A stretch of 64,000 nt of DNA from Hyunsoonleella flava (GTDB lineage Bacteria > Bacteroidota > Bacteroidia > Flavobacteriales > Flavobacteriaceae), in assembly GCF_004310325.1 (NCBI RefSeq), contig NZ_SIRT01000001.1, positions 682,001 through 746,000 on the forward strand, in the 5' to 3' direction. The notes under the pieces are model-generated. The model was not told the origin of the DNA, ran no database searches, and was given only the letters and a program-made list of their open reading frames with translations. The position numbers and the translations under genes were made by a program. Shown in pieces: positions 9,958 to 54,591 of this stretch (position 1 is its first letter; each line of letters opens with the position of its first letter).

Positions 9958-10021
9958 TAAATTTAGAAAAACCCTATTGGGTTTTAATGGATAATAATTA
10001 TCAAAACATAAACGATATTAC
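9958..10021 (-). promoter_or_regulatory. PUL promoter module, copy D (two 21-bp-spaced repeats plus -7 box)
   Basis: On the minus strand the distal repeat (10021-10004) reads GTAATATCGTTTATGTTT. The proximal repeat ends at 9987 (TTATTATCCAT). Exactly 21 nt later comes TAAATTTA (9965-9958), a TAnnTTTG-like -7 box. It is the weakest of four copies but keeps all the spacings. The ATG of the T9SS protein is about 32 nt downstream of the box. Confidence 0.6.
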
Positions 10022-14936: not shown

Positions 14937-15000
14937 TAAAACTAAACTATAAACACCTTAAAAACATAAAAGATACTGCCCTAAACATAGACAAAACTAC
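14937..15000 (-). promoter_or_regulatory. PUL promoter module, copy C
   Basis: On the minus strand the distal repeat (15000-14983) reads GTAGTTTTGTCTATGTTT. The proximal repeat ends at 14966 (TATCTTTTAT), exactly 21 nt from the equivalent base of the first. Another 21 nt later comes TAGTTTTA (14944-14937), a -7-like box. The ATG of the propeller gene is at 14911, giving a leader of about 20 nt. Confidence 0.7.
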
Positions 15001-15249
15001 TTTATTAAAGCAAAACCTGTCTTAGGCTATACAGTTTGAAACCACTAGTGCTTTTGTTTGAATAATCAATGATAACAGTCTGAATTTTAGTTTTACATCT
15101 TCTTGAAGGTGTTTACCAGCGATTAATTACATTTTAAATAAAAAAAATAAATTAAGAGCCACACATAACATATACAAAATCACTCAATTTTATGTATGTC
15201 TGATTTACCTAGAATATATTAATGAAACAGAAATATGACTTTTTCGAAG
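15001..15249. other. Intergenic remainder without recognised genes
   Basis: Together with the promoter module this makes a 338-base gap between the hydroxyproline operon's last gene and the propeller gene. I see no open frame of note and no convincing hairpin terminator, only an A/T-rich run near 15138-15151. Confidence 0.6.
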
Positions 15250-16497
15250 TTAATACTCTCTATCGGGATGAAAAGCAGTAACATCGAGCGTTGTTTTCTT
15301 TTCTGAGATAAAGTCTGAAACCAGTTTCCCAGTCGCTGGCCCTAAACTCCATCCCATCATAGCATGACCTGTTGCGATAGTAAGGTTTTTACATTTTGAA
15401 GATCTTCCAATATAGGGCAATCCGTCAGGGCTACATGGACGCAAACCACATTTAGCTTCTAATTTTTCTTTGGAAGTGATATTGATATTATTATAATACG
15501 AGGTGCTCGCATCTGCTATAGCATTTACACGTACAGGATTTATTTTATGATTTACGCCTGCTAATTCCATAGTCCCTGCAAAACGTGTAAACCCATCCAT
15601 TGGTGTAACTGCAACTTTTGCTTCACATAAAATTGAAGGGATAGTAATTTTAGTATTACTTTTTACGTTAATACTATACCCTTTTCCCGCTTGGAGCAAT
15701 AGCTTTAAACCCAATTTATTATTAAGTTGTGGACTCCAACTGCCTGCTGCTAAAACGACTTCATCACACTCTAATTGTTGTTTGTCTGTTATAACTTTTG
15801 AAATGGTTTGACTAGTCATCGTAACATCAACAACAGTTTCGTTTTTTAAAATTGATACGCCATTTTTTTTTAAAAACAATAGCATATCTTGCATGAAATT
15901 ATTTGGTGTCATATGTGCATCAGAATGATAGTAAACAGCGCCTCTAATATTTAAGTCTACATCAGGTTCTAATTTTGAAACTGCTTCGGCTGATAAATGC
16001 TCAACCTTCAATCCCTCTTCTATACCACGTTTACCAACTTCCCACTCTTCTTCGCCTACCTTATCGGTTTTGTAGCACATTAAAAGTCCTTTTTTTTCAT
16101 AATGAAAGTTGAAGTCTTTGGACTTTTTTAAATCCTCATATAAATCTCTACTTAACAAATTAATATCTAGTAAAGGTTTAATTGATTGTTCTACTTTTGA
16201 AGCTATAGCCGATTTTTTAAAAGCCCAAGCCCATTTCATAAAATCCACATCGAATCTTGGTTTTATGTAAAGTGGACTCTTAGGATTGAACATCCATTTA
16301 ACACCTTTTGATAACATTCCCGGAGCAGCTAAAGCAATGAAATGACTAGGCGTGATGTAACCTGCATTTACATAAGATGCTCCTGAATCCATATTGGATT
16401 TATCAACAACAGTAACCTGATGACCTTCTTTTTGAAGATAATAAGCGGAACACAACCCAATAATTCCACCACCAATAATGATTACATGCTTACTCAT
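15250..16497 (-). CDS. FAD-dependent cis-4-hydroxy-D-proline dehydrogenase (DadA/DAO family)
   Basis: A 415-residue flavoprotein of the D-amino acid oxidase/dehydrogenase family. The FAD-binding motif is at the very N-terminus (VIIIGGGIIGLCSAYYLQKEG). The C-terminal end has ATGHAMMGWSLGPATGKLV, a typical second FAD contact. In hydroxyproline catabolism this enzyme oxidises cis-4-hydroxy-D-proline to 1-pyrroline-4-hydroxy-2-carboxylate. That specific role is assigned from its position seven bases downstream of the epimerase and from the presence of the other pathway genes. On sequence alone, a general D-amino acid dehydrogenase would also fit. Confidence 0.85.
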   Translation of the reverse strand: MSKHVIIIGGGIIGLCSAYYLQKEGHQVTVVDKSNMDSGASYVNAGYITPSHFIALAAPGMLSKGVKWMFNPKSPLYIKPRFDVDFMKWAWAFKKSAIASKVEQSIKPLLDINLLSRDLYEDLKKSKDFNFHYEKKGLLMCYKTDKVGEEEWEVGKRGIEEGLKVEHLSAEAVSKLEPDVDLNIRGAVYYHSDAHMTPNNFMQDMLLFLKKNGVSILKNETVVDVTMTSQTISKVITDKQQLECDEVVLAAGSWSPQLNNKLGLKLLLQAGKGYSINVKSNTKITIPSILCEAKVAVTPMDGFTRFAGTMELAGVNHKINPVRVNAIADASTSYYNNINITSKEKLEAKCGLRPCSPDGLPYIGRSSKCKNLTIATGHAMMGWSLGPATGKLVSDFISEKKTTLDVTAFHPDREY

Positions 16498-16504
16498 ACC
16501 AAAA

Positions 16505-17515
16505 TTAAATTACTTGAAAACCATGTGCATAGGGATCGTCTTCATCATCAATAATTATGGTGTTATACCCATAAATTTTTGCCCAACCTTGAATACTTGG
16601 AATAATCGCTGGTTTACCCGAGATAGAAGTTTCTGCAGTTACACGCCCAATAAATTTACTTCCTATAAAACTCTCATGAATAAATTTTTCTCCAATCTTT
16701 AATTTTCCTTTGGCATAAAGTTGTGCCATTCTTGCAGATGTTCCTGTACCACAAGGACTTCTATCAATAGCTTTATCGCCATAGAATACAGCGTTTCGGC
16801 CAGAGGATTTTGGATCCAATGGTGTGCCTGTCCATAATAAATGAGACACATTTCGAATCGTATCATCTTCTGGATGAATAAATCGATCAGGATATTTTTG
16901 ATTAATAGCTTGCCTTAATACTTGTGAATATTGAATCAGTTTACTTGCTGAGAAATCCTGAACACCTGAGAAGTTTTTTTGCGGGTCGATAATAGCATAA
17001 AAATTACCACCGTAGGCCACATCAAATATTAACTCACCTAGCTCTGGACATTCTATGGTTAAACCTGCGCCTGCTAAATAGCTTTTTACATTGGTCAGTC
17101 GTACCCAATCTACTTTATCACCAGTTTTTTGATATTCAATTTCCACTAAACCTGCTGGTGCTTCCATTCTAATTTTCCCAGGTGTTTTGGGCTGTATCAA
17201 GCCTTCTTCAATAGCAATAGTTATAGTACCAATAGTGCCATGGCCACACATGGGTAAACATCCAGAAGTTTCAATAAATAAAATTGCAAAATCGTTTTCG
17301 GGGTTATGCGGTGGGTATAAAATACTGCCACTCATCATATCATGCCCACGAGGTTCAAACATTAAGCCTTTACGAATCCAATCGAATTCCTTCAAAAAAT
17401 GCTGGCGTTTTTCACTCATGTTGGCACCTATCAATTCAGGTCCGCCGTGTTTTATAACACGAACTGGATTTCCGCAGGTATGCCCATCTATACAAACAAA
17501 AGTGTTTCTTGCCAT
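16505..17515 (-). CDS. 4-hydroxyproline 2-epimerase (proline racemase family)
   Basis: A 336-residue protein of the proline racemase superfamily. Both catalytic cysteines are present: C90 in PMCGHGTIG and C255 in DRSPCGTGTSARMA. This marks a racemase or epimerase, as opposed to trans-3-hydroxyproline dehydratases, which replace the second Cys with Thr. It interconverts trans-4-hydroxy-L-proline and cis-4-hydroxy-D-proline, the first step of bacterial hydroxyproline degradation. Its neighbours supply every later step, which favours hydroxyproline over proline as substrate. It lies 20 bases after the dehydrogenase gene and 7 bases before the oxidase gene. Confidence 0.92.
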   Translation of the reverse strand: MARNTFVCIDGHTCGNPVRVIKHGGPELIGANMSEKRQHFLKEFDWIRKGLMFEPRGHDMMSGSILYPPHNPENDFAILFIETSGCLPMCGHGTIGTITIAIEEGLIQPKTPGKIRMEAPAGLVEIEYQKTGDKVDWVRLTNVKSYLAGAGLTIECPELGELIFDVAYGGNFYAIIDPQKNFSGVQDFSASKLIQYSQVLRQAINQKYPDRFIHPEDDTIRNVSHLLWTGTPLDPKSSGRNAVFYGDKAIDRSPCGTGTSARMAQLYAKGKLKIGEKFIHESFIGSKFIGRVTAETSISGKPAIIPSIQGWAKIYGYNTIIIDDEDDPYAHGFQVI

Positions 17516-17535
17516 TTTTATTAAAATTTAGCGCA

Positions 17536-19059
17536 TCATTTTATAGCTTTTGGCAATAATTCCTTTGGAAAAGACTGGTAACTTACTGGACGCACCCAAC
17601 GTTTAATAGAGTTTGTTCCAACAGCTGTAAACCTAGAATCTGTTGATGCGGGATATGGTCCACCATGTTGCATGGATGGACATACTTCAACACCTGTTGG
17701 CACACCGTTAAAAATTAGGCGCCCTACTCTATCCTCAAGTGCATCTACAATGTCATGAAGTTGCGCATATTCATTTTCTTCTGCAATAATGGTTCCTGTT
17801 AGCTGACCTTCCAAACCGTTGATGATATCGATTAATTCTGATTCATCTTTTGCTTTTACTACCAATGAAAATGGTCCAAATACTTCTTGTTGCATTTTTG
17901 GATTTTCTAAAAAGTCTTTTCCTGAAACACTTACAATTTGAGATGGTGCGTAATTTGGTGCAACTTCATCTTCAATTTTAGCAACAGTCTCTGCGCCACT
18001 TTGAGAAGACACCGTTTCTCCATGAGATACATAACCTGCTTTAATTTTTGGATGCAACATGCATTGCGCTTCAATAGCTACAGTTTTATCCGCTAAATCA
18101 TTTATAAAATCTTGTGTTTTATCACCATCAATCGTTAAAAGTAATCCAGGATTTGTACAAAACTGACCTGTACCTAAAGTAATCGAACCCGCATACTGTG
18201 ATGCTAAAGCTTCGGATCTATTTTCAATAGCCTTAGGTGTAATAATTACAGGGTTTATACTTCCCATTTCGGCGAAAACTGGAATGGGTTCATCGCGTTG
18301 TGCCGCCAGATTGAATAAAGCCCTACCACCTCCAACACTTCCCGTAAAGCCAACTGCTTTAACTTTTGGATGTTTTACTAAAGCTGTTCCAACGTCAACA
18401 CCATTACCATTTAAATTTGAAAATACACCGTTTGGCATACCAGTATCTTTTGCTGCTTTAATAACTGCGCTCGCTACCAACTCACCTGTACCCGAATGCA
18501 TAGGATGCGACTTGACTATTACAGGACAACCTGCTGCTAAAGCACTTGCCGTATCACCTCCAGCTGTTGAGAATGCCAAAGGAAAATTACTAGCTCCTAA
18601 CACCACTACAGGCCCTAAGGGAATAGATGTTTTTCTTAAATCTGCTTTGGGTAAGGGTTCTCTGTCTGGTTGCGCTGCATCAAAAACATTATCGCGCCAA
18701 TCTTCGTTCTGAATTAACTCTGCAAAAGAACGCAACTGAAAAATGGTTCTACCACGCTCTCCATTAGCTCTTCCTTCAGGTAAGCCAGATTCCATCGTAT
18801 ACATATCAATCAATTCTTGATCTAATGCTAAAATTTCATCGGCTATAGCGTTTAAAAAAGCAGCACGTTTTTCTCCTGATACTTTTCTGTATACTTTAAA
18901 AGCATCCCAAGCTAAGTTTACAGCCTCATTTACTTCAGCTTCCGTAGCATCAAAAAACGATGTTGGATTCTCAATATTTAGTTTAGGGTTTACAGTTTTA
19001 TAAGTACTATTTCCTGCGGCTTTAAGCGTTTGCCCGATATAGTTTTTTCCAGTTGTCAT
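17536..19059 (-). CDS. Alpha-ketoglutarate semialdehyde dehydrogenase (2,5-dioxovalerate dehydrogenase)
   Basis: A 507-residue aldehyde dehydrogenase. The catalytic cysteine is C301 (GQFCTNPG), the general base is E264 (FAEMGSINP), and the nucleotide-binding segment is GFTGSVGGGRAL. The AEMGS and QFCTNPG forms are typical of the NADP-type ketoglutarate semialdehyde dehydrogenases used in hydroxyproline and sugar-acid breakdown. It would oxidise 2,5-dioxopentanoate to 2-oxoglutarate, the last step of the pathway, feeding the TCA cycle. The gene is 199 bases downstream of the deaminase gene and 20 bases upstream of the epimerase. Confidence 0.9.
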   Translation of the reverse strand: MTTGKNYIGQTLKAAGNSTYKTVNPKLNIENPTSFFDATEAEVNEAVNLAWDAFKVYRKVSGEKRAAFLNAIADEILALDQELIDMYTMESGLPEGRANGERGRTIFQLRSFAELIQNEDWRDNVFDAAQPDREPLPKADLRKTSIPLGPVVVLGASNFPLAFSTAGGDTASALAAGCPVIVKSHPMHSGTGELVASAVIKAAKDTGMPNGVFSNLNGNGVDVGTALVKHPKVKAVGFTGSVGGGRALFNLAAQRDEPIPVFAEMGSINPVIITPKAIENRSEALASQYAGSITLGTGQFCTNPGLLLTIDGDKTQDFINDLADKTVAIEAQCMLHPKIKAGYVSHGETVSSQSGAETVAKIEDEVAPNYAPSQIVSVSGKDFLENPKMQQEVFGPFSLVVKAKDESELIDIINGLEGQLTGTIIAEENEYAQLHDIVDALEDRVGRLIFNGVPTGVEVCPSMQHGGPYPASTDSRFTAVGTNSIKRWVRPVSYQSFPKELLPKAIK

Positions 19060-19258
19060 CGTTACTTATTTTTTAATGTTTTTTTTAATTTACTCGTTTG
19101 TAACCTACTTTTTTGATACTAGGTGTTTTTGCCATCAACACCTTAAAATAAAAACTTTTTCTCACAACCATTTCTAGAATTATGAGAAACGTGTTATAAA
19201 GTATTCATTTTACCTTTTGTAAAAACGAAGCTTTCTTATTTTTAAATATTTGAAAGCA

Positions 19259-20215
19259 TCAAGTTACTAAGTCCAGGACTTCAAGTCTTTCTTTTGCTAG
19301 AATATATCTCGCATGTACATCATCAATTTGCTGCTTGGTTAATTGCTTACCATAGGTTCGCAGCCCTCCAGCAACATCATTATGATGAATTCCCATAGCA
19401 AGTTTAAGATATTCCAAAAGCAGTGGTTGAGCATCCAGATACGATATGGAATTTAAAGCCTGAGAAATTTTGTTTGCTTTAGCCCATTCCCCATTTGAAA
19501 CATACTCTTGCATGGTAACACTTGCTTTTGGGAAGATACAACCTACACCTGTAATCCCACCACATGCTCCAGCAAGTCCTGCATGAACAGTGACTGTATC
19601 TACTCCTGCCAAAACTTTTAAATCTTTGTTCTCTAACATCAGCGTTTCAATAATTGAAACATCTATAGTCGATATTTTAAGCGCTGTTACTTTAGGAAGC
19701 TCAGAAAGTCTTAAAAGAAGATCAGTTGAAAGCGAATGATAACCAGCTGCGTCAGGATTATTATAAGGCATCACTGTTATACCCATTTCTGTTGCAGTTG
19801 CTTCCGAAAGCGCATAATAGTCATACATTTCTTTTTCAGAAGGAACCTCCTTAGTTTTTGGCGGCATAACCATGACGGTATCAACTCCCACTGTGGCAAG
19901 CCCTTCAATGATTTTGGCAAGTTCTTCCTTAGTTTCTGCTGAAGCTCCGCTGATTAACGGAACATTGTATTCTTTAGCAACCTCAGAAAGGGATTTGAGT
20001 AAAGAAAGGCGCTGTGTGTTACTCAAATAGCTATTCTCACCAAGGGTACCAGAACCTACAAGTCCGCTCATTCTGCTTCCGCCCTTTCCTTTAGTTTTTA
20101 AAATACCTGCGGCCTGTTTTTGTGTTGTATCAAAGTCAATTTCAAGAGCACCAGATTTTGACTCTTTCAACCATGTAAACACTGCAGGCATGACACCATC
20201 CCAATTGGATTTCAT
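19259..20215 (-). CDS. DapA-family 1-pyrroline-4-hydroxy-2-carboxylate deaminase
   Basis: A 318-residue class I aldolase-type protein of the dihydrodipicolinate synthase family. It has the GSGTLGENSYL loop, Y151 in the YNNP motif, and the Schiff-base lysine K180 in TALKIST. Family members act on pyruvate-type substrates; the hydroxyproline branch deaminates and decarboxylates pyrroline-hydroxycarboxylate to 2,5-dioxopentanoate. That role is assigned from the three adjacent pathway genes. It is the first gene of the minus-strand operon, divergent from an AraC regulator across about 130 bases. The 199-base gap after it holds an imperfect hairpin (about 19129-19152) of unknown use. Confidence 0.87.
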   Translation of the reverse strand: MKSNWDGVMPAVFTWLKESKSGALEIDFDTTQKQAAGILKTKGKGGSRMSGLVGSGTLGENSYLSNTQRLSLLKSLSEVAKEYNVPLISGASAETKEELAKIIEGLATVGVDTVMVMPPKTKEVPSEKEMYDYYALSEATATEMGITVMPYNNPDAAGYHSLSTDLLLRLSELPKVTALKISTIDVSIIETLMLENKDLKVLAGVDTVTVHAGLAGACGGITGVGCIFPKASVTMQEYVSNGEWAKANKISQALNSISYLDAQPLLLEYLKLAMGIHHNDVAGGLRTYGKQLTKQQIDDVHARYILAKERLEVLDLVT

Positions 20216-20267: not shown

Positions 20268-20346
20268 TACTACTAAATTATTCTTTTTTAATATTATATT
20301 ATCCATTTATTTAAATTACGCTTATATTTTGAGTATTTTTGTATTA

Positions 20347-21189
20347 ATGAAAGTACACCCTTTTAAAATACCAAAGCCAGAAAATAGCGCATTAATTTAT
20401 CAAGAAGATATTGAAGCTGTTTTTTATGATAAGTTGCATCAACATAATGAAATTCAGATTAGTTTTATAGAAAAAGGAAACGGAACTCTACTGGTAGGTG
20501 ATCATATTTCTAGTTATGTAGAAAATGATATTTTTATTATTGGCAGTAATTTACCACACGCTTTTAAAAGTGATAAACACGGTGCAACTGAATCTAAAAT
20601 GTTGAGTTTATTTTTTACTGAATCTTCTTTTGGTGATACGTTTTTTGAATTGAGTGAATTTAAAGAACTTAACCGTTTTTTCGTGAAATCTACAAAAGGG
20701 TTGGTTGTAAAAAGTAATAAAAGTGACATTATTGAATGCTTTAAAAAACTAAAAAAAGCCTCTAAATTAGAACGATTTATTTTGCTTTTAGAAATTTTAA
20801 AACGCATTGCTACTGCTAAATCTGAAACACTTTCCACGTTTATCTATGAAAAAACCTATTCTGATAACGAGGGTAATCGTATGCGTCATGTTTTTGAATA
20901 CACGATGACTAACTATCAAAAAGACATTTCATTAGAAACTATTGCAAATGAGGCGAATATGACCAAAAATGCATTTTGTAAATATTTTAAAAAACGAACT
21001 AACAAAACGTACGTTACCTTTTTAAATGAAATACGAGTTGAGCACGCCACAAGGCTCTTAGAACAACAGGTAGATTTACCTATTATTGAAATAGCTGAAT
21101 TATCTGGATTTAACAATTTATCAAACTTTAATAGGCAATACAAAAAAGTAAAAGGACACATTCCTTCCTTTGTTAGGAAGCGTGTTTAG
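20347..21189 (+). CDS. AraC family regulator, probably of the hydroxyproline operon
   Basis: A regulator of about 280 residues. The N-terminal cupin-like sensing domain contains HQHNEIQISFIEKGNGTLLVG. The C-terminal two-helix-turn-helix AraC domain contains ISLETIANEANMTKNAFCKYFKKRTNKTYVTFLNEIRVEHATRLLEQ, then EIAELSGFNNLSNFNRQYKKVKG. An upstream TTG is in frame, but the ATG at 20347 starts the cupin sensibly. Divergent placement against the deaminase gene suggests it activates the hydroxyproline operon in response to hydroxyproline or an intermediate. Its stop overlaps the convergent sulfatase stop by four bases. Confidence 0.9.
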   Translation: MKVHPFKIPKPENSALIYQEDIEAVFYDKLHQHNEIQISFIEKGNGTLLVGDHISSYVENDIFIIGSNLPHAFKSDKHGATESKMLSLFFTESSFGDTFFELSEFKELNRFFVKSTKGLVVKSNKSDIIECFKKLKKASKLERFILLLEILKRIATAKSETLSTFIYEKTYSDNEGNRMRHVFEYTMTNYQKDISLETIANEANMTKNAFCKYFKKRTNKTYVTFLNEIRVEHATRLLEQQVDLPIIEIAELSGFNNLSNFNRQYKKVKGHIPSFVRKRV

Positions 21190-32071: not shown

Positions 32072-35000
32072 TCACGATTTAACACCTACAAGCGCCTGAT
32101 GAATACGAGCTGGAATATGTGATAAATTTGTATCTAAAACATTCTGTAAGGCATCTGATGCTTCTATATCATTTCCTTTGCCCAATTGCCCCAAACCAAT
32201 CATGTAGTTACAGTGAATTTTATTAATCACATTCAAGTCTTCTTCCCAAATCAATAAATCTGGTAAGGAAATAGCAAAATAATCCAGTTTAACCTCATCA
32301 TTCATGTGAGCTTTACCATAATTCAACAAATTGTCAAATCTTGTGTGTGCTTCCTCTGTTCTTCCTAGTTTTTGTAAAGCCAAACCTTGATAAAATATCT
32401 TATCTGGTTGTTGGTCGTTATAAAAAATTGCAGGACTAGGATCGCTTAATCCTTCAGAAGCTAATTCAAAATATGCTTTAGCTTTTTCCTCATTACCTAA
32501 ACCTTCATAAGCACAACCTAACCAATAATCAATATCATTTTCAACAGTGCCATGCAACTTTCCTTCTCCTAAATTATGTGGATAGGTCTTCGCTTGTACC
32601 AACAGATCAATAGCTTCATCAAAATTCTTTATGTTGATATATTTCTTAGCAAGTTCTGTGTAGCACGTTAAATATTGAAAAGGTACTTTACCTTCGCCAC
32701 CTTCCCAAGGATGGAATTGTCGCTTATCGATAAGTGATTTTGCTTTTTCAAAATCGCCTTTCAAATTATACAAAGCAATACGCTCTAAGTATAAATCATC
32801 CCTAGAGTTCGTCAAATCCATATATTGCTCTAATAAGGCTAAACGTTTATCAATTGAAACATTAATTTTCTTATATAGTTGGTCTAACTCCATCAACAAT
32901 CGTGCATCTGTATTATCCAACTCAAACGCTCTTTCTAAGTGTTGTTGTGCCAACTTTTTTTGATTGGTTTTGTTGTAATATAACAACGCCAAATTACGGT
33001 GCGTAATAGCAAAACCATCATCTAATTTAACTGAAGTTTCCCAACAGTCTTGCGCTTCTGTATACTGTCGGTTAGCGTACCAAAAATTTCCTAAATAGTA
33101 ATATGCTTTGGCATCGGTTGGGTTTGCTTTACAAGCTGCTTGTAATGCTAAAACTTCTTCTATTTTATTTGGAAAACAGTATGTGTCGGGCATTTGCGAT
33201 GCTTTTTTATAAGCCGCTAATGCACTAGCATCATCTCCGTTTTGAGTGAAATACCAGCCCATGAAGTAATGTACCATTGGATACACACTATCATTAGCAT
33301 CGGTAAGTACTTTTAATAATGAAATAGCTTCATCAAACTGACCAGCCATAGCGTAATCTAAAGAAAACTCTATGTAGTTATGGGCGTAGTTTCTAAGAAT
33401 ACTCTTAAATGCTTCCAAATCCTCATGCGCATTAGATAAAATATACTTCTCGAATAATACTCCAAAATTGAATTTATCAATAGCTAAAGAATCTTCTATG
33501 AGTTGCTTTGCTTCTTCAATTTTTCCGGTTTTTCTTAATAGAATAACTTTTAGGTGTCTCGCTTTATGGTTGTGCCAGTTTTTAATTAATGCTCTATCCA
33601 CAAGATCCAAAGCTTTTTCTAAATCCCCTCTAAAGCAATCAATTTGCGCCAAGTTGAAATAACCTGCATCTTGCCATTGTGCATTCCAACACGCTTTGAA
33701 GAAACTAGCGTATGCTTCCTCTTTTTTTCCTAAATAATTTAAAACTAGTCCTTTATTAAAGTAGGGCTCACCATCATAAGGATTAGGGTTATGACTAGTA
33801 AGCGTTTCAATAGCCGTGTCAAAATATCCAATGGCTTTTTCCAACTGCCCTTTGCGCATGTACCAAAGCCCCATGGCGTTATTGCAACGTACATCCTTTG
33901 GCGTACGTTTTAATGCTTCTTCGTAATAATCGGTTGCCACAAATGTAGCATGCCTATATTGCTCTAAGTGCAACCCTCTTAAATACAAGCCTTCAATAGT
34001 GTCAATATCTTCAGGTGCTTTTGCCGCTTTTGCAGGCTCTGGGATTTCATCAGACAAATCTTTATCCGGCTCCCAAACTACTAGCACTTTTCCTGAACTA
34101 TCGTTTACTGAAATTTGTAAATCATCAAAAGTGTTTGAACCAATATCGATACGTTTTTCAAAACCATCTTTTGGAGAAAGGTTTAATACTTCTTTATGCA
34201 ACACCTTTCCATCTGCCTTCAACGTAATTACACAATTATTGTAAGTAGAAGTCACATATACTTTAACTTGAGCTTTTCCATCAATCATTTCAAGGTTTAC
34301 CAATGCTTCTTTAGTGGCATTTTTAACTACGCCAACATTATAATATGGCATAAAATATTGCTTAAAGCTCTTCTCTTCGTATGGATGCATCCATGAGAAA
34401 TCAGGTTGATTATCGGTATAAACACCACACATTAACTCGATATATGGACCGTCTGAATCTGTTAAATTTCTGTCCCATGCTTTTCCAAATTCACCGTTAC
34501 CCCAAGTCCATTGCTTTTTACCAGGTGATACATTATGATCTGCAACATGAAGTAACCCTCCCTTTGAATCATTTTCATAACCACCCACAAAATCATATTT
34601 TGATGTGATGGCCATATAACTCGTTGGTACAGGAATATTTTTATATCTGGAAATATCGGTTCCTGGTGAATAATCTACCTTGTAATATTCGCCTTTTGCA
34701 ATTGGAAACTCAGATACATCACGTTTACCATGATCAAAAACTGCATTTACATCTGGTGGAAAAACAGACTGGTAATGATCGTTCACAGCTACCGCAGGAT
34801 TTGCCCACCATAAAAAGGTTTGCGGATGTGGCGTTCTGTTATATAAATGTGCCTTAATTTCAATGTAAGCTTTATCTGGATGCAATGTAAAACCAGCCAT
34901 ACCTTTAGTACGGAACATGCGCTCTAACTCACTTACCCAAACGGTTTTACTACCATCTTCATTTTCTTCTATATAAAAATCCGTTGGATCGTAGGTACTT

Positions 35001-35374
35001 GGTCTGTGGTGTTGTGGCCAGTTAAATTCTATACCTCCAGAAATCCACGGTCCTGTTAAACCTACAAGCGCTGGTTTAATTACATGATTATAATACACAA
35101 AATCGCGCTTTCTAATTTTATCATACGCTCTTTGAATTCTGCCACCCAAAGCTGGTAAAATCATCAATTTGATGTAATCGTTTTCAATAAATATGGCATT
35201 CCATTCTTTATCTACTTTAGTATCACTAATTTTTTCTATCACAGGATGCGGATACACAGCACCACTACTAGCTTGATATACACGCTTCTCTAAAAAAACA
35301 GGATATTTTTCAGGAGTTCCAACTTCATAAGTAGGAATGATTACTTTTTCTTCCCAGGCTTTTACAGTTTTCAT
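32072..35374 (-). CDS. DUF5107 and TPR repeat protein, large, probably cytoplasmic
   Basis: A 1100-residue protein with no signal peptide or lipobox. Residues about 1-330 match DUF5107: aldose-epimerase-like beta-sheet motifs such as LMILPALGGRIQRAYDKI, WISGGIEFNWPQHH and ELERMFR. A beta-rich linker follows. Residues about 460-1090 are a long array of TPR helices (for example AMGLWYMRKGQLEKAIGYFDTAIE). Such proteins recur in Bacteroidota polysaccharide loci without an established reaction. The mutarotase-like N-terminus suggests carbohydrate binding or catalysis. The lack of an export signal, amid exported enzymes, suggests it acts on sugars after uptake. Confidence 0.8.
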   Translation of the reverse strand: MKTVKAWEEKVIIPTYEVGTPEKYPVFLEKRVYQASSGAVYPHPVIEKISDTKVDKEWNAIFIENDYIKLMILPALGGRIQRAYDKIRKRDFVYYNHVIKPALVGLTGPWISGGIEFNWPQHHRPSTYDPTDFYIEENEDGSKTVWVSELERMFRTKGMAGFTLHPDKAYIEIKAHLYNRTPHPQTFLWWANPAVAVNDHYQSVFPPDVNAVFDHGKRDVSEFPIAKGEYYKVDYSPGTDISRYKNIPVPTSYMAITSKYDFVGGYENDSKGGLLHVADHNVSPGKKQWTWGNGEFGKAWDRNLTDSDGPYIELMCGVYTDNQPDFSWMHPYEEKSFKQYFMPYYNVGVVKNATKEALVNLEMIDGKAQVKVYVTSTYNNCVITLKADGKVLHKEVLNLSPKDGFEKRIDIGSNTFDDLQISVNDSSGKVLVVWEPDKDLSDEIPEPAKAAKAPEDIDTIEGLYLRGLHLEQYRHATFVATDYYEEALKRTPKDVRCNNAMGLWYMRKGQLEKAIGYFDTAIETLTSHNPNPYDGEPYFNKGLVLNYLGKKEEAYASFFKACWNAQWQDAGYFNLAQIDCFRGDLEKALDLVDRALIKNWHNHKARHLKVILLRKTGKIEEAKQLIEDSLAIDKFNFGVLFEKYILSNAHEDLEAFKSILRNYAHNYIEFSLDYAMAGQFDEAISLLKVLTDANDSVYPMVHYFMGWYFTQNGDDASALAAYKKASQMPDTYCFPNKIEEVLALQAACKANPTDAKAYYYLGNFWYANRQYTEAQDCWETSVKLDDGFAITHRNLALLYYNKTNQKKLAQQHLERAFELDNTDARLLMELDQLYKKINVSIDKRLALLEQYMDLTNSRDDLYLERIALYNLKGDFEKAKSLIDKRQFHPWEGGEGKVPFQYLTCYTELAKKYINIKNFDEAIDLLVQAKTYPHNLGEGKLHGTVENDIDYWLGCAYEGLGNEEKAKAYFELASEGLSDPSPAIFYNDQQPDKIFYQGLALQKLGRTEEAHTRFDNLLNYGKAHMNDEVKLDYFAISLPDLLIWEEDLNVINKIHCNYMIGLGQLGKGNDIEASDALQNVLDTNLSHIPARIHQALVGVKS

Positions 35375-42114: not shown

Positions 42115-43689
42115 TTATGAAGAACTACCTATTAACGTATTAACAGATCGTGCCATCAGAGTTATTTCTTTATTATTTATTTTTTCTAATTCTAAATTTT
42201 TGCTTGCAGAGGTAACATACATACGCTCTAATCTGCTATTTGAAATATTAATTGTTTTGTTTTTATATCCATAATTTATAGCAACAATTGCTAGTTCTGA
42301 TGTTGCTTCATCTAAATATGCCGATAACATAATATCTTTATACTCCTCTTCTATTGGCATTTCTCTTCCTTCTATTTTTGCATCAATTCGAACCATATCG
42401 GGTTTAATAAACCTTGAATAGTTTCCAAAAGCCCACAGAAGTTTTGAGTCATGAAAATCACCATCATATTTTATTTTTTCAAGATTAAATAGGTCTGATG
42501 TTTCACCAGAATCTAAATAAATTAATCCATCTTTATAGTCAGCATTTGTCAATGCCGTCCACCATTGCCAAGAAGTAGAATTTGCAAGCGTTAAATCTGC
42601 ATGTATCACTCTCGCTACATAAAGCGCTGTATCAATGCCTAAATCTCGTTTATTTCCGCTACCAATATCATCGGTGTTTTCAAGAATACAAAACTCACTT
42701 TGCCAGTAATCTAAATCATGTGTTTCTAATGTTTTATTTAGTTTCTTTCGAATTTGAACCAAACTATCGACTGGCCATGTTGTAAAATAACTATGACCTG
42801 AAATTGTATTTTTAACATGTTTTAGATTTTGAATTGCGTTGTTTTCACCAAAGAAATAATCAATTTGATTACCACGTTTAGGTTTATTATATGAAGAATA
42901 TAACCAACGCAAATCCGCCGCTTCTGCTAAAACAATTTCAGTATTCAAATCACTTTTTTCAAATTCTGTATTTAGCAAGTAGGCTAATTTTGCGATATTA
43001 TCATTGGTTGCAGGCGTACCTTCTTGCGTTTTTTTCTCCCATTCCCATTGTGGCTCGTTTATTGGACTTAAATACTCAAAGGATATATTTTCTGAATCAA
43101 AATGTTTTATTACTTCAACCATAAATTTGGCATAATCATCATATTTATCTTCCAAAAGGTTTAGCTCTCCAGTTGTTAAATCGCTATTGTAGCCTTTTCC
43201 ATTTTTTGTCCACTGTACAGGTGCTGAGATAGAAAAAGCCAGAAACCTTTCTACCCCATAAGACTTTGCTTTTTTTAGAAACCATTGCTGACCTTCTTGT
43301 TTATTCCAATCATAAAAGCCTTTGTCATCAATAAAAGATTCTGCTCTACGCCATTCGTTTTTTATATCTGAATCCATCCCTTGCTCTGCAGTACCAGCAC
43401 CAATGTAAAAACGCCATATAGAAAGCCCAATCCCTTTAGGATTTCCCTGAGAATCTAAATCTTTACTAAATAATAGTTCGGCAATACGTTCCTTCTTTTC
43501 ATTAGGCCAATTTTTACCAACAAACTGACATCGCCATGCGTCTGAAGCGCCAAAACCTTCTATCGTTTGAAATACTTGGTGCTTATCAATATTGATTTTT
43601 AATACTTCATCACTAGTACAAGAACTTAACAGGAATCCATAGGCAATAAAAACACAAACATGCATAATATTATTTAAAATGAGTTTCAT
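42115..43689 (-). CDS. GH30 family glycoside hydrolase, lipoprotein
   Basis: A 524-residue lipoprotein (lipobox LSSC at residue 24). It has a GH30 barrel starting at FQTIEGFGASDAW, acid/base E212 in PINEPQ, nucleophile E332 in YWQSEF, and a C-terminal beta-sheet domain. The pattern resembles endo-beta-1,6-galactanases more than glucosylceramidases. That specificity is an inference. It is the first gene behind promoter copy B (43752-43815), which probably drives the long transcript through the sulfatases and GH2 genes. It is a paralog of the GH30 at 45343-46965. Confidence 0.87.
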   Translation of the reverse strand: MKLILNNIMHVCVFIAYGFLLSSCTSDEVLKINIDKHQVFQTIEGFGASDAWRCQFVGKNWPNEKKERIAELLFSKDLDSQGNPKGIGLSIWRFYIGAGTAEQGMDSDIKNEWRRAESFIDDKGFYDWNKQEGQQWFLKKAKSYGVERFLAFSISAPVQWTKNGKGYNSDLTTGELNLLEDKYDDYAKFMVEVIKHFDSENISFEYLSPINEPQWEWEKKTQEGTPATNDNIAKLAYLLNTEFEKSDLNTEIVLAEAADLRWLYSSYNKPKRGNQIDYFFGENNAIQNLKHVKNTISGHSYFTTWPVDSLVQIRKKLNKTLETHDLDYWQSEFCILENTDDIGSGNKRDLGIDTALYVARVIHADLTLANSTSWQWWTALTNADYKDGLIYLDSGETSDLFNLEKIKYDGDFHDSKLLWAFGNYSRFIKPDMVRIDAKIEGREMPIEEEYKDIMLSAYLDEATSELAIVAINYGYKNKTINISNSRLERMYVTSASKNLELEKINNKEITLMARSVNTLIGSSS

Positions 43690-43751: not shown

Positions 43752-43815
43752 CAAAATTAAAACTATTATCTATAATAAAAATAGATGGTAAAATTTAAAA
43801 TATGGACAAAATCAC
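43752..43815 (-). promoter_or_regulatory. PUL promoter module, copy B
   Basis: On the minus strand the distal repeat (43815-43798) reads GTGATTTTGTCCATATTT. The proximal repeat ends at 43781 (TTTACCATCTAT), 21 bp from the first. TAATTTTG (43759-43752), a perfect TAnnTTTG box, follows after exactly 21 nt. The GH30 ATG lies about 62 nt downstream of the box. Confidence 0.8.
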
Positions 43816-43824
43816 TGTTCAATA

Positions 43825-45243
43825 CTAATTACTTTTCAATATAATTTTATAAATCTGATACAAACCTTGTTTATTAACATCAACAACTACTTCGTTATTT
43901 GTGGATAATTGAGCAGATGTTGACTGTGTGATGTAAGGTTCAGCTTTCGCTGTATCATTATAATCAAATGGTACAAACCGCTCTACTTTTTGAATGGAAC
44001 TAATATTAAATCCATTTACCTTAACTGCCACTTTCTTTCCGCTTTCCTTGCCGCCTGTGATATACAAAACCATCGTATTCGCATCCTGAAGTGCTGCTGC
44101 TAAATGAAATTTATCAGATGTTGTCTTTAGAGCTTTTCCACGGTATGAAGCGGCCATGTCTCCTAAAATCTGCCCCGTAGGAAATACTTTAGAGTAATTC
44201 CAGCTAGTTAAACCTAAACCAGGTATAGAAGTGTTGATTGGAGGCCAAAACGCCGCAGCCTGGGATCCTGCTCTTGCATATATTTGTATAATATCTGGGA
44301 TGATGTTGGCGGCTTCCATATACAAAGCCCTATCATTATAATCTCTGGAAGGCATCCACTCTGATAAATATTTGAAGTTCTTGTTTGGATTAAAATTATT
44401 TGCACAATCTTTAATACGCGCTTCTAAATCAGCTATATTATGAGTAGTTGTGCTATACCCCGTATAAGTATGTAGCGCCACACCATCAATAGCATTATAT
44501 GCCTTAGTGAATTTATTTTTCATTGTTGTAAATTCCTGTGGCTGCGTATAATCTCCATTAATCAATAATTTGAATGTTCTATTTGGAAACTCGCTCTCAA
44601 TATATTCTGCTATATCCATTGCCACCTGAACATACTTATCCAGTTTTTGAGCTCTAGAAACACCACCTGCAAATTGTAGCCACCACTCATTGCCTATTTC
44701 AACTAAACCATTACCTACATTAGAAACCGTAATAGCTTCTTTGGTTCTAGCTTTTAAATTAGCCATTGCTGTGTTCCATTGAGAAGAGCCTACAGTTGTA
44801 TTCATAGCTGCCGCGGTTGGTAGCACAATACTATAATTTGACACATTACTTTTTAAAGTTGTTACAGATGCTCCAGGTTGAGATGGCGTGTTATTCCATC
44901 CTGGTGTTGTGTTGCTTGTCCATGCATAAAACTCAGATTCCCAACCTCCTGGGTATCTTACCACAGTTGTTCCAATATTACCAAGTGTAGATGCAAAATT
45001 GGAAAAGGTATTATCTGGTATTTGACGCCAATCATTATTAACGCCAAAAATATCAGGATAAATATCTACGGCGTCGGTTGCATCAACAGACAAAGTAATA
45101 TCGGCATTTATATTTTCTATTGGATCATCGTCATCATCTGTATCATCAAATTGCGGATCGTCTGGATCTGTTCCATTATTTGTGCTACATGCCAGCATAA
45201 ATCCTATTAATACCAACGATAGTATTTTACTAGTCTTTAACAT
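43825..45243 (-). CDS. Clan GH-A glycoside hydrolase (arabinofuranosidase-like), lipoprotein
   Basis: A lipoprotein of about 472 residues with lipobox cysteine C19 (FMLAC). An acidic linker (TDPDDPQFDDTDDDDD) precedes a TIM-barrel domain. Clan GH-A signs are VVRYPGGWE (residues about 94-102), acid/base E186 in VEIGNEWW, nucleophile E295 in YLSEWMP, and a C-terminal beta domain. The RYPGG and GNE pattern recalls GH51/GH39-like enzymes, but I cannot place it in one family. The ATG at 45243 is preferred because it starts the lipoprotein signal. It is the last gene of the transcript that begins at promoter copy A. Confidence 0.75.
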   Translation of the reverse strand: MLKTSKILSLVLIGFMLACSTNNGTDPDDPQFDDTDDDDDPIENINADITLSVDATDAVDIYPDIFGVNNDWRQIPDNTFSNFASTLGNIGTTVVRYPGGWESEFYAWTSNTTPGWNNTPSQPGASVTTLKSNVSNYSIVLPTAAAMNTTVGSSQWNTAMANLKARTKEAITVSNVGNGLVEIGNEWWLQFAGGVSRAQKLDKYVQVAMDIAEYIESEFPNRTFKLLINGDYTQPQEFTTMKNKFTKAYNAIDGVALHTYTGYSTTTHNIADLEARIKDCANNFNPNKNFKYLSEWMPSRDYNDRALYMEAANIIPDIIQIYARAGSQAAAFWPPINTSIPGLGLTSWNYSKVFPTGQILGDMAASYRGKALKTTSDKFHLAAALQDANTMVLYITGGKESGKKVAVKVNGFNISSIQKVERFVPFDYNDTAKAEPYITQSTSAQLSTNNEVVVDVNKQGLYQIYKIILKSN

Positions 45244-45342
45244 TTTTTTTAATTTATTGGTAATTATTATTAAGAATTGAGGGCTAGCTATTTCTGTCAA
45301 GCTTATCTTGCTTAACTGAAATTTTTGCTTATTCTTTTCTAG

Positions 45343-53071: not shown

Positions 53072-53703
53072 TTCCTATTTAGTTTATCGTTTTTTAATAC
53101 TTGTATATAGACATTTTTAATAATTTCTAAGTTGGTTTTTTAGTTGTAGAGACTATCAAATATTTTTTTGTAAACGTTCAGAATTAACAAAATTTAAGGT
53201 TGATAATAGTACTTTTACTAAACTGAGTGTAAAAAATTTATGATTTCTTCAATAGACATTATACAAATATAAAATAGATTATAGTCAGAGTGATAGACAA
53301 AAAAATCATAAACATGGACAAAAACACTTAACTTAATGATATTTTCATTATACTTGTGGTATTGGATATATTATTTCATGGATTTCAACAACTTTGATAA
53401 AAAAAATCGTACTACCTATATAGGAATAGGCATTATATAGAATGTAACTTTATAAATATTATTCATTACCATAAGAATTATATTTTGATTGTCGGATTAA
53501 GCGAACCATGGATAAAGATTTTCAATATTTAGCTTTTAAACATAGAACATCAAACTATATATTTAGAAAAAAGAAAGCAGAAAAGATATTTATTTGAGTA
53601 ATGTTCCTGACTTATTCAAATTGAGCATTCCACATACTTAATAACCGTCTAAATAAAATGGTTTTTCAAAAATTTAGCTTGGTGTCTTTAAAAACATATT
53701 ACA
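53072..53703. other. 632-bp divergent regulatory region between SusE-like gene and AraC gene
   Basis: No gene is seen. It holds promoter copy A (53264-53327) facing the polysaccharide genes, then a leader of about 190 bases to the SusE-like ATG. The right part up to 53703 would hold the promoter of the AraC gene. There are weak half-site-like words ATGGATAAAG (53508) and ATAGAACATC (53542), but they lack the 21-bp spacing. Confidence 0.7.
53264..53327 (-). promoter_or_regulatory. PUL promoter module, copy A (drives SusE-SusC-SusD unit)
   Basis: On the minus strand the distal repeat (53327-53310) reads GTGTTTTTGTCCATGTTT. The proximal repeat ends at 53293 (TTTTTTTGTCTAT), exactly 21 bp away. 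TATATTTG (53271-53264), a perfect TAnnTTTG box, follows after 21 nt. It is the strongest copy. The proximal repeat occupies the -33 region, as expected for an activator that contacts RNA polymerase. Confidence 0.82.
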
Positions 53704-54591
53704 ATGGATAGTGAATTTCTTCGTGAAGGTTTTCTGGGTCAAAAACTAATTGCTTTTCCAGAGGCAATCATAGATATTGTGAAGAGCAATCCTATTACTG
53801 AAAAATTCTATATAAGCGATTTGGGATATTACCCCGAGGCGCATAACCATTATAGATTTAGGGAAAATGGCGCCAATGAATTTGTGTTTATTTATTGCAT
53901 AAAAGGAAAAGGTGACATAACTATAAATAATTCAACCACAGAAATAGCACCTAACCAGCTTTTTATAATTCCAAAAAATGTTAAGCACGAATATAGAGCA
54001 GATAAAATAGACCCTTGGAGTATCTATTGGTTTCATTTTAATGGTACAATGGCTCCTGAACTTTATAAACGCTACCAAGCCACAAACTATATTAACTACA
54101 TAGATCTACCATTTTCAACTGATAAAATTGACTTGTTTAATAAGATATTCGACTTATTTGAAAGAAATTATTTGGAGAACCATATAGAATATGCGAACCT
54201 ACTTAGTTTGGGGTTCATTAGTTCTTTCGTTTATCATGATTCTGATTCCAGAACTGAAACAGACCAAAAGGATACACTGGTAGATCAAATAAAGAATTTT
54301 TTACTTTCTAATCTTGGAGATAATTTCACATTAGTTAACATAGCTGATAAATTCAACTATTCAAAATCATACTTACACACTAAGTTTAAAAGGGAAACAG
54401 GATATTCTATAATGGTTTTTTTTAATCTCAAAAAAATACAAAAAGCATGCGAATATTTGAATTATACAGATATGAGCATCAAAGAAATTAGTTATAAGGT
54501 TGGTTTTGATGACCCTCTATATTTCTCTAGAATTTTCAAGAATTTTATGGGGAAATCACCAAGGCATTATAAGCAAAGTAAACGGAAATAA
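53704..54591 (+). CDS. AraC family regulator, candidate activator of the polysaccharide locus
   Basis: A 295-residue protein. The N-terminal cupin-type sensing domain (residues about 35-110) contains VFIYCIKGKGDITINNSTTEIAPNQLFIIPKNVKHEYRAD. The C-terminal AraC DNA-binding domain (about 190-293) has FTLVNIADKFNYSKSYLHTKFKRETGYSIM and a second helix-turn-helix in IKEISYKVGFDDPLYFSRIFKNFMGKSPRHY. It has no membrane segments, so it is a one-component cytoplasmic sensor. It is divergent from the polysaccharide genes and sits beside the strongest copy of the 64-bp module. A mono- or disaccharide released by the pathway is the likely effector. Confidence 0.93.
   Translation: MDSEFLREGFLGQKLIAFPEAIIDIVKSNPITEKFYISDLGYYPEAHNHYRFRENGANEFVFIYCIKGKGDITINNSTTEIAPNQLFIIPKNVKHEYRADKIDPWSIYWFHFNGTMAPELYKRYQATNYINYIDLPFSTDKIDLFNKIFDLFERNYLENHIEYANLLSLGFISSFVYHDSDSRTETDQKDTLVDQIKNFLLSNLGDNFTLVNIADKFNYSKSYLHTKFKRETGYSIMVFFNLKKIQKACEYLNYTDMSIKEISYKVGFDDPLYFSRIFKNFMGKSPRHYKQSKRK

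Follow-up and report, generated by a model that had tools for sequence, protein, structure and literature searches.

In Escherichia coli, AraC activates transcription from the operator half-sites I1 and I2, which lie upstream of the start, and its second HTH acts on the B-box. The half-site is given as TAGC-N7-TCCATA in the part of the source available to us (PMC4514859). Direct repeats with a 21-bp period are known under AraC-type domains, for AraC and as predictions for the hybrid two-component systems (HTCSs) of Bacteroides PULs, which share the AraC-type DNA-binding domain with the protein described here and for which the accessible text reports predicted direct repeats with a mean spacing of 21 bp ahead of PUL operons (PMC3878776). 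For a marine sulfated-galactan system, genetic work has revealed an AraC-family regulator, CgrA (ZGAL_3159) of the Zobellia carrageenan regulon, whose positive regulation was demonstrated by deletion; the portion of that article at hand describes no binding site for it (PMC5698469). As here, the gene is of the AraC family and stands in a marine flavobacterial sulfated-galactan locus, but the carrageenan enzymes, in the same portion, differ from those of our locus, and CgrA is likened by its setting, not by its sequence. In the open-access literature we found no marine flavobacterium with an operator described for an AraC-type PUL regulator of the one-component kind.

The window, i.e., the whole stretch of 64,000 nucleotides that we analyzed, from 682,001 to 746,000 on contig 1 of the Hyunsoonleella flava genome, contains four copies of a 64-bp module of operator and core promoter (P1 to P4) that is unique to this locus in the genome, conserved in relatives, and tied to the gene of an AraC-type protein, AraC1 (Table 1). 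Very probably, AraC1 activates through this module four units of a putative sulfated-galactan locus, 20 genes in all. What was known of AraC-type sites would lead one to expect the 21-bp direct repeats; less expected here were a half-site resembling that of AraC and an operator placed on the start codon of the regulator gene in relatives.

Table 1. Features of the AraC1 locus; positions are those of the window, and units were inferred from gene spacing
Feature	Position	Strand	Description
AraC1, proposed activator	53704..54591	+	295 aa; cupin-type ligand domain and double-HTH DNA-binding domain
P1, class A	53264..53327	-	51.3 bits with the 11-site profile; 29.5 bits with R1
P1 distal half-site	53310-53327	-	
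P1 proximal half-site	53289-53306	-	
P1 -7 box	53264-53271	-	TATATTTG; predicted start ~53259, leader of ~188 nt ahead of the SusE/F-like gene
P2, class A	43752..43815	-	45.3 bits with the 11-site profile; 31.5 bits with R1
P2 half-sites	43798-43815, 43777-43794	-	
P2 box	43752-43759	-	TAATTTTG; predicted start ~43747, ahead of the GH30 gene 42115-43689
P3, class B	14937..15000	-	19.8 bits with the 11-site profile; 27.7 bits, E 1.2e-5 with R2
P3 half-sites	14983-15000, 14962-14979	-	
P3 box	14937-14944	-	TAGTTTTA; predicted start ~14932, ahead of the BNR/T9SS gene
P4, class B	9958..10021	-	20.3 bits with the 11-site profile; 31.1 bits, E 9.9e-7 with R2
P4 half-sites	10004-10021, 9983-10000	-	
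P4 box	9958-9965	-	TAAATTTA; predicted start ~9953, ahead of the 281-aa T9SS protein
Predicted unit under P1	43825..53071	-	5 genes: SusE/F-like, SusC, SusD, GH30, 491-aa protein; gaps of 4-55 nt
Predicted unit under P2	21186..43689	-	11 genes: GH30, sulfatase, MFS sugar porter, GDSL, GH2, DUF5107-TPR, sulfatase, sulfatase, GH2, LacZ-type GH2, sulfatase; gaps of at most 54 nt
Predicted unit under P3	10190..14911	-	3 genes: BNR-like T9SS protein, Fn3/SusE-like, GH16
Predicted unit under P4	9080..9925	-	1 gene: 281-aa T9SS-sorted protein (Por_Secre_tail, TIGR04183)
Hydroxyproline-type operon, outside the regulon	15250..20215	-	FAD oxidoreductase, 4-hydroxyproline epimerase, aldehyde dehydrogenase, DHDPS family
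AraC2, the hydroxyproline operon's own AraC-type gene	20329..21189	+	20% identical to AraC1; apparently outside the regulon
Start-codon modules of relatives			L011 (same genome as L041), L030, L031, L034, L015, L016, L017, L022, L023, L024

The initial annotation had reported the four 64-mers with two invariant spacings, and all of them were found at their coordinates on the minus strand, with both spacings exact. Each module contains two 18-nt half-sites separated by 3 nt, which gives the 21-bp period, and, after another 17 nt, a box of 8 nt; this box lies 21 nt beyond the repeat when counting starts at the RTCYAT core. The distal consensus of that annotation, GTNNTTTTGTCYATGTTT, holds for the copies ending at 53327 and 15000 (no mismatch) and at 43815 (one), but less well for that ending at 10021, which has three mismatches and is equaled or surpassed elsewhere in the window at 15183 (two mismatches) and at 2697, 11052, and 24156 (three each). 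The second repeats of P3 and P4 are poor matches. P1 and P2 end in TAnnTTTG, the Bacteroidota sigma-A -7 consensus, and P3 and P4 in TAnnTTTA, as do most of their orthologues; P3 and P4 are thus a sub-class, which we call class B. The base directly preceding the module is A in all four window copies and in all 39 training sites of relatives, and this column, used neither for finding nor for training sites, is an independent check. Besides the modules, the minus strand has a further match resembling a module, though weaker (18.0 bits; 17.0 for the half-site), at 43656-43673, just within the 5' end of the GH30 gene of P2. A solitary distal-type half-site lies on the minus strand at 15166-15183, 183 bp upstream of P3. 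Comparable ones occur 148 to 188 bp upstream of P3 in G300, G307, and G308, and none was present in G299, G302, G306, and G002; with a weak half-site in just four of the eight genomes inspected, the idea of a looping site led nowhere.

A profile built from 11 sites of relatives ranked the four copies first to fourth in the window, while the 64-kb maxima of 50 Markov sequences averaged 10.0 bits (standard deviation, 3.6; highest, 21.4). The assertion that four such copies are very unlikely by chance was therefore upheld for P1 and P2, which score far above this null, but P3 and P4 are marginal with the 11-site profile and debatable on the window evidence alone. We scored the classes with two profiles containing no window sites: R1, from the class-A sites collected in relatives (23 out of 25, L037b and L030c being left out), and R2, from 14 class-B sites of relatives, leaving out the near-duplicates L079 and L098, the class-A-like L084 and L085, and L083 and L102, which have no upstream site. 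Scanning the 3.81-Mb, 63-contig genome at E 0.05, R1 found P1 and P2 only. R2 recovered P3 and P4, the next match in the genome having an E value of 0.029. Across 17 genomes, R1 gave 35 matches of at least 25.7 bits (next best, 21.4). All but one of them lie on the contig of the regulator within 37 kb (34 of 35); the remaining match, in a draft genome, is on a different contig. R2 gave 18 matches of at least 27.7 bits in the same number of genomes, all at mapped P3 or P4 positions (next, 24.2), although those other than the window's two are mostly training sites. The initial annotation had named as many matches within genes as upstream of them as a reason to abandon its reading; with only four strong sites in the genome, the scan gave no such reason.

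None of the 61 distinct modules of at least 24 bits in the window and in 38 fetched stretches of 16 other genomes overlaps an ORF of at least 100 aa by more than 20 nt, and the next downstream ORF begins within 63 nt for 40 of 59 modules and within 210 nt for 54. Since these stretches were picked around the locus and the scanning profile was trained on the same relatives, so that these counts are in-sample except for the window's four, the case for specificity rests on the genome-wide scans and a Gibbs search. The first sites in relatives had been found with a consensus derived from the window, and this circularity was checked by the window-free profiles, the Gibbs search, and the unused column at -1 of the module. 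The Gibbs search was run with no prior motif and no window sequence and without the near relatives G300, G305, and G308. Of its 20 class-A upstream regions, 16 yielded the module, and each of the 14 class-B regions yielded a 21-bp pair, 13 of these pairs being sites already mapped. The motifs carried 30.8 (class A) and 32.5 bits (class B) against 15.3 to 15.8 and 17.6 to 18.4 for shuffled inputs. Among the class-A misses, the input for GH30b of G307 came from upstream of the other GH30 and did not include the known site, and the GH30 genes of G302, G304, and G310 have no module at 24 bits before them.

The modules are kept before orthologous genes, and the conservation that the initial annotation had called for was thus found. 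A strict pattern allowing at most two mismatches gave 33 matches in 20 of 32 genomes, compared to 2 for the reversed pattern, and its two matches in the H. flava genome were P1 and P2. In relatives, the module stands ahead of orthologues of the SusE/F, second GH30, BNR-like, and 281-aa protein genes. Nine of the ten P3 orthologues examined (L076-L085) have a module of at least 15 bits (the match of L083 lies downstream of the gene), and nine of the ten P4 orthologues examined (L096-L105) have one of at least 10 bits; these counts do not include L086-L094 and L106-L114, which are weaker loci.

AraC1 has the Pfam domains HTH_18, HTH_AraC, and AraC_binding. Its residues 213 to 291 match PF12833 with 71.8 bits (cut-off, 33.6), the double HTH of the AraC/XylS family, and PF02311, a cupin-type ligand domain, is matched with 61.8 bits (cut-off, 21.1). 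With 295 aa and only AraC-type and cupin domains found, it is a one-component protein without the kinase or periplasmic sensor of HTCSs. Its AlphaFold2 model (mean pLDDT, 88.8; pTM, 0.73) matches full-length structures of the family poorly overall (TM, 0.29 to 0.34 by query), while the single domains match well: the fold search returned AraC-type DNA-binding domains and the ligand-domain folds of BgaR, a lactose-sensing AraC-family protein, and AraC, with TM scores by target length of 0.67 to 0.76 for BgaR and 0.61 to 0.68 for the arabinose domain of AraC. BgaR also matches AraC1 in sequence (E 6.8e-7 over residues 60 to 128), at only 18 to 22% identity. The BgaR-like ligand domain of the model, together with the sugar porter in the locus, suggests a galactose- or galactoside-type ligand. 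The nearest relatives of AraC1 found in named genomes are from Hyunsoonleella (81% and 79%).

The module keeps company with the AraC1 gene. Among 299 genomes of the family, 20 carry AraC1 (E 1e-60), and strong class-A matches by R1 occur in 9 of these and in none of the other 279 (Fisher P = 3.6e-12), or in 5 of 16 against 0 of 279 when four genomes with training sites are excluded (P = 2.4e-7), values that overstate independence because the genomes are related. The matches of at least 25.7 bits number 16, in the 9 genomes, and the best score among the 279 is 23.4 bits. These counts come from a scan with stricter filters; at E 0.01, 54 of the 299 genomes have some match, the weak ones being spread over carriers and noncarriers alike. 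No strong class-A match was found in 11 of the 20 AraC1-bearing family genomes; thus, the site either disappears or drifts together with the regulator. One R1 match, in G061, lies more than 1 Mb from its regulator.

Other neighbors come and go while the module stays. In G311, G152, G303, and G309, the same SusC/SusD pair does not adjoin the regulator, being different or absent, and modules are still present before other genes; GH30 is absent in 13 of 15 genomes with a distant regulator, in which the module still lies beside the regulator gene. The site thus goes with the regulator rather than with the enzymes. Of the 32 regulators scored, 10 have the whole module over their own start codon, facing the divergent gene (P ≤ 2e-5 given a Met-Asp start); 34 regulators were considered, two having no ATG in reach, and the start-codon sites of L034, L041, and L030 had been removed from the profile. 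Eight of 19 regulators have as their divergent neighbor an orthologue (67 to 88%) of the window's sugar porter, often the gene faced by the module, and L017 has a sulfatase orthologue in that place. The window's own AraC1 gene was also considered for a start-codon site and has none (P = 0.61). The proposal of one AraC-type activator for the whole locus is accordingly supported by co-occurrence and by the module staying with the regulator as far as AraC1 is concerned, but "the whole locus" was too wide, because the hydroxyproline operon and AraC2 carry no module: besides the four, the window has no site of at least 24 bits, and none at 15250-20215 or at AraC2.

We infer the following from the sequences. 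With the box at -12 to -5, where the -7 box was mapped in Flavobacterium psychrophilum according to the part of the source consulted (PMC9723704), the two direct half-sites fall at about -68 to -51 and -47 to -30, an activator geometry. A sugar-bound AraC1 dimer would occupy both half-sites, 21 bp or two helical turns apart, the proximal one spanning the -33 region and thus having the predicted -35 placement of an AraC-type operator, and would hold RNA polymerase at a promoter with a Bacteroidota -7 box. The SusE/F-SusC-SusD-GH30-unknown unit, the 11-gene sulfatase/galactosidase/porter unit, the secreted BNR/GH16 unit, and the secreted 281-aa protein would thereby be switched on, perhaps by galactose or a galactoside imported by the porter. 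P3 and P4 perhaps have a lower output, as their box ends in A and their proximal halves are weaker. For the same reason, the case for their control by AraC1 depends on where they stand, how they are spaced, and the distal half-site.

On another reading, P3 and P4 would belong to AraC2 instead, leaving only P1 and P2 to AraC1. Class B does differ in box and proximal half-site, and AraC2 with the hydroxyproline operon adjoins P3 in the window and in G300, G307, and G308. Yet the P4 site persists in genomes without AraC2 (at E 1e-40 or better), with 42.4 bits in G301, 40.0 in G304, 24.2 in G305, and 37.7 in G002; H. pacifica has P3 and P4 sites although its fetched locus lacks the hydroxyproline operon; the two classes hardly differ in the distal half-site; and the Polaribacter P3 orthologues L084 and L085 carry class-A modules. 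We rejected AraC2 on the persistence of the P4 sites and on the H. pacifica locus and consider its ownership of P3 and P4 very unlikely. It is also very improbable that another regulator reads the sites, such as an HTCS encoded elsewhere in the genome: this genome does have large ORFs (1,324 to 1,374 aa) with AraC-type HTH matches, and predicted Bacteroides HTCS sites average a 21-bp spacing in the accessible text (PMC3878776), but the module accompanies the AraC1 gene, even lying on its start codon, in genomes with different neighbors, and strong matches are confined to AraC1-bearing genomes.

That AraC1 binds but represses, the units being induced by its release, has a similarly slight probability. 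The proximal half-site at -47 to -30 might block polymerase, and the sign of regulation rests on geometry; this geometry is that of an activator, as both sites precede the -7 box and neither covers it, and the activation operator of E. coli AraC is arranged alike, the sequence and register of I1 having been seen in our scan of the ara locus (below). Chance likeness among AT-rich promoters with TAnnTTTG boxes, to which the 35% G+C content and the marginal scores of P3 and P4 with the 11-site profile might lend some color, is practically excluded by the null scans, the uniqueness in the genome, and the unguided recovery in relatives (30.8/32.5 bits, compared to at most 15.8/18.4 for shuffled inputs).

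Activation by AraC1 through the four modules, the reading that we prefer, resembles the arabinose system in several respects. AraC1 has a cupin ligand domain and a double HTH, as does E. coli AraC, and the module, like araI1-araI2 at araBAD, has direct half-sites that repeat every 21 bp and precede the core promoter. The distal half-site here, A-G-[T/C]-A-N6-TCYAT, shares TCYAT and the A-G of TAGC with the AraC half-site, but the A-box, TAGC in AraC, is mostly AGT here, and the C of TAGC occurs in 7 of 39 training sites. When the class-A distal profile was run over both strands of the 3,287-bp ara locus of E. coli, araI1 came out best and in register with 11.2 bits, compared to 7.4 for second place, 0.066 matches being expected at that score. 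It was also first when both half-sites were pooled; with the class-B distal profile it was sixth, and with the proximal profile it was not listed among the matches in this locus. In the proteins, 11 of 14 residues of the second-HTH segment and 34 of 102 residues of the DNA-binding domain are the same in AraC1 and AraC. On the other hand, AraC1 scores 107.8 bits against the NCBIfam AraC equivalog (PRK10572), under the cut-off of 208, and the system differs from that of AraC in its Bacteroidota -7 box, its PUL target, and the absence of arabinose genes.

RTCCAT reads ATGGAY on the opposite strand, a Met-Asp start, so a single site on the start codon would activate the divergent porter or PUL while blocking the gene of the regulator itself, which suggests a compact self-limiting switch. 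We tentatively raise the possibility, itself rather doubtful, that the AraC operator code (A-G-N8-TCCAT, a 21-bp period, and a near-unchanged second HTH) is common by homology to gammaproteobacterial AraC and the flavobacterial AraC clade, the start-codon operator being a self-limiting switch that was later scattered over PUL promoters. Should the resemblance to araI1 reflect homology, one could explore over what length of time an operator code persists. The analysis itself yields a site with its profile and candidate activator, as well as targets in 17 genomes. It also separates the genes that would act jointly on the polysaccharide (20 genes under four promoters) from uninvolved neighbors.

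The locus is a PUL, having a SusC/SusD pair (TIGR04056, 807.7 bits; cut-off, 368.25) and glycan-active enzymes. By gene spacing, the regulon comprises 5, 11, 3, and 1 genes in four predicted units. They encode two GH30 enzymes (PF14587), three GH2 enzymes (one over the LacZ-type cut-off), a GH16, four sulfatases, a sugar porter nearest XylE, the GDSL and DUF5107-TPR proteins, and two T9SS-sorted proteins. The co-occurrence of sulfatases with GH2, GH16, and GH30 points to a sulfated galactan as the substrate; in the PDB search, the best match of GH30 was an uncharacterized protein. The hydroxyproline operon, whose epimerase scores 587 bits (cut-off, 376), lies with AraC2 inside the PUL also in G300, G307, and G308, which hints at a hydroxyproline-rich glycoprotein, e.g., an arabinogalactan-protein, as food. 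A sulfated algal arabinogalactan-protein is a known bacterial food according to the part of the source available (PMC8406133), but the suggestion is a guess, as the PDB match of GH30 is uncharacterized and H. pacifica has the regulon without a hydroxyproline operon in the fetched locus.

Two further proteins of the locus deserve mention. The 491-aa protein (43825-45300, minus strand) has no Pfam or NCBIfam match, is conserved in the PULs, and has invariant GNEWW and SEW motifs; its model, of modest quality (pLDDT, 69.2), matches GH51, GH44, and beta-glucuronidase structures, suggesting an unassigned glycoside hydrolase of clan GH-A. The DUF5107-TPR protein (32072-35374, minus strand) is mostly 80 to 90% identical across other genera and is among the most conserved proteins of the locus.
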